Source: Desulfatibacillum sp.
Lineage (GTDB): Bacteria > Desulfobacterota > Desulfobacteria > Desulfobacterales > Desulfatibacillaceae
Assembly (NCBI GenBank): GCA_016342355.1
Contig: JAEINP010000027.1
Coordinates: 1 to 64,000, forward strand
Reading direction: 5' to 3'
Length of the DNA stretch: 64,000 nt
Positions 39,192-40,136 of the stretch are shown here, in pieces (within the stretch, counting starts at the first letter, position 1; each line of letters opens with the position of its first letter). The translations under genes were made by a program, and so were the position numbers. Below the pieces are notes generated by a model. That model saw only the letters and a list, made by a program, of their open reading frames with translations. It made no database searches and was not told where the DNA came from.

Positions 39192-39222
39192 AAAAAATGC
39201 CTGCATTTTGTTTATGCAGGCT
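39192..39222 (-). terminator. Terminator downstream of the riboswitch-controlled gene
   Basis: On the minus strand GCCTGCAT pairs with ATGCAGGC across a 7-nt loop and is followed by ATTTTTTG. It ends the transcript of the small secreted protein before dusB. Confidence 0.8.
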
Positions 39223-39283
39223 TTGGGGTAGCTTGTTCCCTCAGTAGCGCCATCATGTCGTGAATTGTAGCAGAGCAAGGTTT

Positions 39284-39634
39284 TCAACGAATTACTGTCA
39301 CCCTGGCGGTAATCTTCATGGTTAAATTGCCTATGAAAAAGGCGCCGAATTGGGTGTCTGAAGTTATGAACTCAATGGTAATGGTGGTTGGTGCGATGTT
39401 TAGCTCCACACCATGTTGGTCTTGCGTCAGGTAATTTGTGAAAAGTTCCGGTGTCTCGGTCAAAGCGCTCAGCATTTCCGTGGTCATATCGGAGGCGATA
39501 TCTACTCCAGGTCCCCATCCCTGTGCGGAAATTCCCGCCAGTTCCATGTCGGTCATTTCGATTTTTTCCGCCATAGCCGGAATGGCGAGCAATGTACCGA
39601 AGACAAAAATGGTACAAAACACTAGTATTTTCAT
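39284..39634 (-). CDS. Small secreted protein under GEMM riboswitch control
   Basis: A 116-residue protein with a signal peptide (KILVFCTIFVFGTLLAIPAMA) and a mature start EKIEMTDMELAGISAQGWG. Short D-x-E-L-x-x-I-x-x-Q-G starts after signal peptides recur in secreted proteins of Desulfobacterota. The rest is Thr-rich and beta-prone (APTTITIEFI, LTMKITARVTVIR). GAAGGAG precedes the ATG. Two tandem GEMM aptamers stand upstream, so expression should follow cyclic dinucleotide levels; a role in surface attachment is inference. Confidence 0.75.
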   Translation of the reverse strand: MKILVFCTIFVFGTLLAIPAMAEKIEMTDMELAGISAQGWGPGVDIASDMTTEMLSALTETPELFTNYLTQDQHGVELNIAPTTITIEFITSDTQFGAFFIGNLTMKITARVTVIR

Positions 39635-39645
39635 GTTGTCTCCTT

Positions 39646-39662
39646 CAGCAGTGTAGCTGCTG
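39646..39662 (-). promoter_or_regulatory. Expression-platform hairpin abutting the Shine-Dalgarno
   Basis: CAGCAG pairs with CTGCTG around CTACA directly between the second aptamer and the GAAGGAG ribosome site, sharing its first base with the aptamer 3' end. There is no U-tract, so translational control is more likely than termination. Confidence 0.5.
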
Positions 39663-39735
39663 GTAACCCGGCTATCCGCATCAGTGAGGGACCCGTGGCT
39701 TTCCGCCCCTGCCTTGCGACAGGTTTGGCTTTATC
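39662..39735 (-). ncRNA. GEMM (c-di-GMP class I family) riboswitch aptamer, gene-proximal copy
   Basis: On the minus strand: GCCAAACC, a stem CCTGTC/GGCAGG closed by a GCAA tetraloop, then GGAAAGCCACGGGTCCC and a 3' end AGCCGGGTTACC. This is the layout of GEMM-I aptamers (AAACC, GNRA-capped arm, CAAAGCC-like joint, GGGUUACC). Ligand could be c-di-GMP or a variant such as cGAMP; the residues deciding this cannot be assigned safely by eye. Confidence 0.85.
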
Positions 39736-39742
39736 TTTCCGC

Positions 39743-39812
39743 CGGCGGCCCGGCAGTCCCCTAAAACTGGGACCCGTGGCTTTCCGTCCCTGTCTTGCGA
39801 CAGGTTTGGCAA
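39743..39812 (-). ncRNA. GEMM (c-di-GMP class I family) riboswitch aptamer, distal copy
   Basis: A second complete aptamer upstream of the first: GCCAAACC, stem CCTGTC/GACAGG with GCAA loop, GGGACGGAAAGCCACGGG, then GTCCC/GGGAC arm and 3' end TGCCGGGCCGCC. From GCCAAACC to GGGTCCC it matches the proximal copy at all but two positions, while the second arm differs in length, so the pair are distinct but related aptamers. Confidence 0.8.
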
Positions 39813-40136
39813 AAAGAGACGATTGACATGATTGCGCTACTCAAGGAAAAGCGTTCCCGGATTGTCTGGTCCGGGCAAATTGTCAAAGAGCAGGATTTCT
39901 TAGCTTGCCAACCCAAAGGCGAGGAAGAATCGCCTATAAAAAATTGATTGGCTTGTAAGTTTCATCGGAAGAGTAGGCGAAAACCTTTAGAGAAATTAAG
40001 GCGGCAGAGGGGAGTGTTTGGATAACGTTTGATATCAGCATGTTATTGTAAAACAACAGAGTGCGGAAAGCGGCATACTGGGGGAGGCCCAGCAAGGCAC
40101 TATCCCCGAGGCAGAGTAAAATCCCCGGAGATTAAT
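39813..40136. other. Upstream region of the riboswitch gene; no gene seen
   Basis: About 320 bp without a supported gene. It should hold the minus-strand promoter for the riboswitch transcript; a TTGACA box is present near 39880 but no convincing -10. A 39-codon frame on the plus strand (39829..39948) lacks a ribosome site. Confidence 0.4.

Follow-up and report, generated by a model that had tools for sequence, protein, structure and literature searches.

A candidate rRNA-precursor-like messenger RNA enclosing a tandem c-di-GMP-I riboswitch in Desulfatibacillum

On the minus strand of a 64,000-nt stretch of a Desulfatibacillum sp. contig (JAEINP010000027.1; hereafter the window), which is also the strand of all window features given below, two GEMM-family aptamers precede a single small gene, raising the question of whether this locus is one more tandem riboswitch or part of a larger RNA architecture. 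The preliminary description of the region had proposed tandem aptamers of this family and a search with the Rfam c-di-GMP-I models. In that search, run with cmscan, both the upstream copy (aptamer A, 39740..39819) and the downstream copy (aptamer B, 39658..39738) exceeded the curated thresholds of two covariance models, with 62.1 and 67.1 bits, respectively, for c-di-GMP-I-GGC (RF03167, threshold 59), the best Rfam label of both, and 59.3 and 64.3 bits for c-di-GMP-I (RF01051, threshold 35). No other riboswitch matched in the whole window, where the sole further match was a tRNA. The AAACC, GCAA-loop and GGAAAGCCACGGG cores previously noticed are indeed common to both aptamers. The copies do adjoin each other, but the 7-nt gap first given between them depends on the chosen aptamer end: the covariance-model spans lie 1 nt apart, and 15 nt separate C92 of the upstream copy from G20 of the downstream one. 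The pair is also kept in Desulfatibacillum alkenivorans, ahead of a 66% identical protein. The presence of c-di-GMP-I is in itself ordinary here, because this class was found in 281 of the 389 genomes of the order Desulfobacterales, and published counts of tandem c-di-GMP-I riboswitches amount to 347 doublets and 12 triplets (PMC9481103). The tandem riboswitch alone, as first described, would be ordinary. A domain-swapped composite aptamer, built from the 5′ half of A and the 3′ half of B, was the minimum-energy fold in the window; we dropped it because it was not the minimum-energy fold in D. alkenivorans.

Covariance-model alignments placed G20, A47 and C92 at the ligand-contacting positions of both window copies, which we take to be the canonical c-di-GMP set in the numbering of the Vc2 structure. 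Despite the RF03167 scores, neither copy has a GGC-type G at position 47. The RF03167 consensus carries a G at the A47-equivalent position, to which, judging from that consensus, the name c-di-GMP-I-GGC presumably refers, whereas RF01051 has an A there, as do both copies. Neither do they have the A at position 20 that marks cGAMP riboswitches of the GEMM-Ib type, both copies being G20. That a ligand-contacting G or A separates c-di-GMP from cGAMP binding has been tested in aptamers of D. acetoxidans (PMC9481103). The predicted ligand of both copies is c-di-GMP. The earlier suggestion that the copies might differ in ligand is unsupported, G20, A47 and C92 being identical in A and B. A scan of the window found no terminator-like site between the two copies, and therefore, with identical contact bases, neither the two-input logic that had been considered nor two independent switches are indicated. 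A steeper dose response from the tandem copies, the other effect put forward, is possible. In all eight Desulfatibacillum aptamers aligned, the pair beside position 20 is flipped (GCC...CGG versus GGC...CGC). The GGGACGG of the other seven genus aptamers is GGGGCGG in aptamer B (39709-39703), a change that might weaken this copy; copy A of D. alkenivorans deviates elsewhere, in P3. Among the relatives introduced below, one (L105, = L078; 1321-1475) has the cGAMP-type A20 in the third of its three aptamers and a G in the first, a possible mixed-ligand array.

Downstream of the pair we found, as initially claimed, a single small exported protein, encoded by one 116-aa ORF (39284..39634) with a signal-peptide-like N-terminus by eye and the motif MTDMELAGISAQG. 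Searching it against Pfam and NCBIfam returned no model past its cut-off, with a weak hint of PF19657 (DUF6160; E=0.11, 13.2 bits versus a cut-off of 27), and its AlphaFold2 model, with a mean pLDDT of 52.6, was not strong enough for further use. An intrinsic terminator-like hairpin followed by ATTTTTTG lies further downstream (39199..39221); it is the one site in the scan, for which shuffles gave a mean of 1.4, and is weak alone. The window genome carries four c-di-GMP-I aptamers at three loci, namely the tandem pair, one aptamer before a 118-aa paralogue and one before a lipase-like secreted protein, and the same three loci occur in D. alkenivorans DSM 16219, the other genus genome compared. 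At the lipase-like genes (L002, 1501-1605 (+); L012, 1580-1475 (-)), a single c-di-GMP-I aptamer is followed by a T-run, and the 3′ strand of the L012 aptamer is part of a hairpin (1480-1495 with 1505-1520). This arrangement reads as a different, terminator-like expression platform within the same genus. Neither of these two lipase loci yielded a boxA-like motif or arms of the kind described below, nor any arm complementarity above shuffles.

We then considered how ligand binding could be conveyed to the tandem-pair gene. The hairpin that had been placed beside the ribosome site is present: CAGCAG-CUACA-CUGCUG (39646..39662, pairing 39662-39657 with 39651-39646; dG -8.7) abuts the Shine-Dalgarno region AAGGAGAC read in the sequence at 39638..39645, and local structure with dG below -2 occurs at the same place in 16 of 19 loci. 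Upstream, a candidate anti-Shine-Dalgarno GUCUCUUU (39813..39820) pairs with AAGGAGAC, and the leader bases UCAUGU (39826-39831) face the start codon; the two pairings together can enclose both aptamers. P1 pairs are absent from copy B in the model alignments and number at most three in copy A. When both aptamers were enforced, the probability of the anti-Shine-Dalgarno helix was 0.71-0.99 in the window and 0.38-0.98 in D. alkenivorans; its complementarity is modest, shuffled linkers equalling it in 7% of cases in the window, 7-68% at the four genus loci and 7-89% at all 19. Since this helix stands in place of a strong P1, c-di-GMP binding would most likely stabilise it and repress translation, and we propose with moderate confidence a translational OFF switch by c-di-GMP. 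Within the complete transcript, the leader bases opposite the start codon are also part of the 5′ arm described next, so that closure of the arms would free the start codon from the leader, which we offer as an idea. By eye, the arrays of several relatives show CCUCC just ahead of the last aptamer, and six loci (L104, L106, L108, L110, L112 and L113) have GCCUCCU or ACCUCCU, that is, anti-Shine-Dalgarno stretches, right after the penultimate aptamer.

The larger architecture became apparent outside the region covered by the preliminary description. A 5′ (leader) arm at 39825..39848 is complementary in 21 of 24 positions to a 3′ (trailer) arm at 39236..39259, 24 nt past the stop codon. At the other three Desulfatibacillum loci of the same protein type the complementarity is 25/26, 19/22 and 24/29, and each of the four loci beat 300 of 300 shuffles. 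Folding of the full mRNAs rendered arm pairing probabilities near 1 along most positions at all four genus loci, with values of 0.76-1 in the window except at two positions. Relatives were then collected across the order with a profile of the four genus proteins followed by a profile of seven distant relatives, which uncovered additional short exported proteins built alike, with an N-terminal signal and an xDxELxxITGQ-like motif. Thirty-four loci were parsed, 14 of them without a gene by the gene motif; of those 14, the four with aptamers (L114, L117, L134 and L135) were followed by hand and the other ten, with no motif-found aptamer, were omitted. A covariance-model scan of the 17 remaining loci, including those ten, revealed no aptamer. 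L084 was excluded for its weak aptamer (35.3 bits) on the far side of the gene, and L082, a two-aptamer locus of another family that the gene motif had missed, was added last. Covariance-model counts reach four aptamers in L134, five in L114 and three in L104, L106, L110, L112, L113 and L135, and, counted by motif, these eight arrays have four to six aptamers each. In L114, the covariance model places five c-di-GMP-I aptamers in one leader (701-1207), to which the motif adds a sixth, an array exceeding the doublets and triplets in the accessible part of the published survey (PMC9481103); a sub-threshold group II intron match lies at 207-282 of the same locus.

Arms with a score of at least 10, a cut-off chosen after the scores were known, were found in 16 of the 19 aptamer-bearing loci of this protein type, and in 17 of 20 with L082 added; they span seven families (f1, f10, f18, f30, f35, f47 and f60). 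L082 was tested after the idea had been formed: its GCTCTTTGA is immediately followed by CATGCTGCCAGGGTA, to which a perfect complement (15/15) occurs 27 nt past the stop codon, and its 5′ arm shares two bases with the 11-nt boxA. The arms vary in sequence, with GGGTAAAAGAGTAAC in one family, GGAGATAAAAGGG at another locus and AATTGGCAGAGACTGTCGG in a third family, each pairing with its own 3′ region, and several are only 10-15 nt long. When partners were swapped among loci, none of 20,000 permutations reached the observed sum, be it for the 16 loci above the cut-off, for 12 representatives or for all 20 loci unselected (observed 283; permuted sums averaged 174 and peaked at 230). As controls, 29 c-di-GMP-I loci of other genes, drawn from the 30 best-scoring aptamers and not at random (L034 was too short), scored at most 11.5 in an approximately seven times larger search space, a range that includes L106 (10) and L115 (10.5). 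Owing to the relatedness of the loci, their counts suggest more independence than there is: L110, L112 and L113 carry the same 15-nt arms, and the arms of close relatives often fit one another as well as their own partner.

Upstream of the 5′ arm, the leader contains a boxA-like element, TGCTCTTTGACA, which continues with ATTT (39881..39892) and is a proposed NusB/S10 site. The window reads TGCTCTTTGACAATTT and the E. coli rrnB leader TGCTCTTTAACAATTT, with 15 of 16 bases equal. With respect to the published gamma-proteobacterial boxA consensus GYTCTTTAANA (PMC5725501), GCTCTTTGACA shows one departure, G for A; a search of nine genomes for rRNA, whose own boxA would be the direct comparison, found none. 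A short hairpin, CCCGG...CCGGG (39856..39875), is seen between boxA and the 5′ arm, and a hairpin is evident by eye at the same place in D. alkenivorans and several relatives. The motif G[ACT]TCTTTGA precedes the 5′ arm at every one of the 17 arm-bearing loci, L082 included; a stricter first version had matched 13 of 16 loci and was widened afterwards to include GATCTTTGA, giving 16 of 16. It was detected in none of the three arm-less loci (L107, L109 and L111, one-aptamer relatives), in one of 29 other c-di-GMP-I loci (L053 being too short for this count) and in none of 12 similar genes without aptamers, with a chance expectation of ~0.004 per 220 nt. These 12 are the distinct loci among 14 rows (L090 = L124, L094 = L127), two of them with 47 and 319 nt upstream. 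Motif and arms seem to come and go together, because L107, L109 and L111 lack both. Over its two strands together, the window contains three copies of the motif, and arms follow only the one at this locus (score 16.5 versus 9 and 10). Exact boxA-like matches elsewhere numbered 36 in 11 genomes, and the 30 examined lay mostly inside ORFs; five non-coding sites had no arms, with best scores of 8-10. A title-level literature search, of which most subscription journals were no part, listed no title on boxA-riboswitch mRNAs or on boxA with a riboswitch or c-di-GMP, and for the letters TTCTTTGA with boxA no title among the matches listed was evidently about boxA RNA. The reading that we put forward, at even balance between belief and doubt, is that of an rRNA-precursor-like c-di-GMP-sensing mRNA combining a boxA tether, a leader-trailer helix and an enclosed translation switch.

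Four other explanations have to be weighed against it. The arms could pair in the mRNA with boxA uninvolved, CTTTGACA being part of a promoter and the 5′-3′ pairing governing stability or translation; we regard this as unlikely, while giving it serious weight. TTGACA is the sigma-70 -35 hexamer, and the TTTGACA of the element is readable as a -35 box; moreover, there is precedent in icaR, where the paired 5′ and 3′ UTRs are cut by RNase III (PMC3868564). However, no consistent -10 was seen by eye at ~17 nt in the leaders inspected, and a scan of the window region found no promoter. Furthermore, in L117, L115 and L082 the motif is so close to the start of the 5′ arm, at a few bases, that as a -35 box it would leave the arm untranscribed. 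L110 offers by eye a TTGACA-N17-TATATT upstream of the motif, and the match to the E. coli boxA runs past the hexamer, both of which also speak against the promoter.

If instead the arms acted as DNA, either delimiting a mobile element or serving as recombination sites of an invertible segment, the inverted repeats on either side of riboswitch and gene (10-38 nt) and a TAAAAG core common to ten loci would be natural, but several lines of evidence make this improbable. The motif sits on the aptamer-side arm in 17 of 17 cases with no flipped state, at one assembly per species, and exact copies of the genus arm motif occur only three times in the window genome, always at these loci. Besides, arm sequence varies from one lineage to the next and is not the same at the two loci of one genome, and the arms covary pair by pair. 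For the latter analysis, ten loci were aligned on the TAAAAG core, and the four Desulfatibacillum loci were aligned separately; the anchors of arm alignments A4 and A5 were set manually. Both sides had changed in 7 of 16 pairs of the ten-locus alignment (14 cells, versus 4.8 in shuffles) and in 8 of 24 pairs of the genus alignment (versus 4.4), with 1-3 and 0-3 such pairs, respectively, in slid versions. Four of five covariation measures were above all 500 shuffles in both alignments, the shuffles taking no account of relatedness; for the fifth, further pair types, 377 and 470 of 500 shuffles were at least as high. All four genus loci have one unpaired position, with G opposite G. The non-Watson-Crick departures in the best arms comprise 14 G.U, 3 A.C and 10 others (P=0.006 for G.U versus A.C if independent, weakened by shared ancestry), an excess expected if the sense RNA pairs, whereas a DNA-level repeat predicts equality. 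From this comparison of loci, the pairing of the arms is well supported. We also considered a dispersed repeat as the source of the arms and rejected it: a pattern of the genus arm with one mismatch occurs in 39 of 40 genomes, but all three exact matches of the window genome fall at these loci, and the additional two of D. alkenivorans look coding by eye.

Equally improbable in our view is an intrinsic terminator split over the transcript, with the 5′ arm, made available by leader tethering, as its first half and the 3′ arm with a following U-tract as its second. At least five T within 12 nt follow 9 of 16 arms, as in GTTACTCTTTTACCC-TTTTTTTTT of L112, but 29% of all 12-mers in these regions are equally T-rich and the window locus has its separate local terminator-like site. 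That this is an ordinary tandem c-di-GMP-I riboswitch with chance or irrelevant arms, for which the published doublets and triplets would be parallels, we consider very improbable in view of the permutation, control-locus and covariation tests and the later locus L082.

The rRNA-precursor-like reading brings together features evident at the level of sequence, namely aptamers with canonical contacts, covarying arms in seven families and the co-occurring boxA-like motif, and would operate as follows. Transcription would start upstream of boxA, which NusB and S10 would bind in the nascent RNA, holding the leader by the RNA exit channel as proposed for rRNA antitermination, while both c-di-GMP-I aptamers loop out together with the short coding region. 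The emerging 3′ arm would then pair with the tethered 5′ arm, forming a leader-trailer helix of ~24 bp around riboswitch and gene that may protect the mRNA or present it to RNase III. Inside, the GUCUCUUU/AAGGAGAC helix would enclose both aptamers, replacing a strong P1 stem, and c-di-GMP would most likely stabilise this inner helix, with repression of translation as the outcome. We infer NusB binding, tethering, the role in RNase III cleavage or stability, the direction of control and the ligand. More tentatively, though still as a real prospect, we extend this reading to a class of mRNAs that use rRNA transcription machinery, being boxA-tethered and closed, with one to at least five c-di-GMP aptamers inside that control translation of a small exported protein.

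One close likeness is to the rRNA precursor, as depicted in the accessible part of a report (PMC10250234), where a boxA is followed by a 5′ arm whose pairing partner is a 3′ arm in the trailer, both arms being variable yet covarying. Here too, a covarying helix is found downstream of a boxA-like motif, as in leader-trailer structures of the rRNA type. In rRNA, boxA and NusB are proposed to hold the leader strand until the trailer emerges; mutation of boxA had no more than a two- to three-fold effect, while loss of the helix abolished activity (PMC10250234). Unlike the rRNA precursor, the helix at our locus encloses aptamers and a coding region, and its NusB site is putative. Base pairing between the 5′ and 3′ UTRs of a single mRNA is also known from icaR of S. 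aureus. That pairing takes place at the Shine-Dalgarno region itself (PMC3868564), whereas the 5′ arm described here lies upstream of the aptamers and comes with a boxA-like motif and a riboswitch. A boxA in an mRNA leader, which the boxA-like element here would also be, is known from suhB of Enterobacteriaceae, for which the accessible portion of the source describes neither riboswitch nor trailer arm (PMC5725501). As to tandem GEMM-I riboswitches, such as the triplet of B. thuringiensis (PMC4759541, PMC9481103), the repeated class-I aptamers, their core and contact bases are the same as here. In contrast to those examples, as far as their accessible descriptions go, the copies of our pair have no terminator-like site between them and lie inside an anti-Shine-Dalgarno/Shine-Dalgarno helix and leader and trailer arms, and relatives hold three to at least five copies.

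A leader-trailer design would be unexpected for a riboswitch-controlled gene. Leader-trailer helices with boxA are known from rRNA; if they truly surround coding mRNAs, the machinery of rRNA transcription and folding would have been reused for regulated mRNAs, and a riboswitch would operate within a closed, rRNA-like transcript. If so, this locus would also be a small, probably non-essential model for the boxA-tethering idea, and it would link a second messenger of biofilm life to the closure, stability or antitermination of an RNA.
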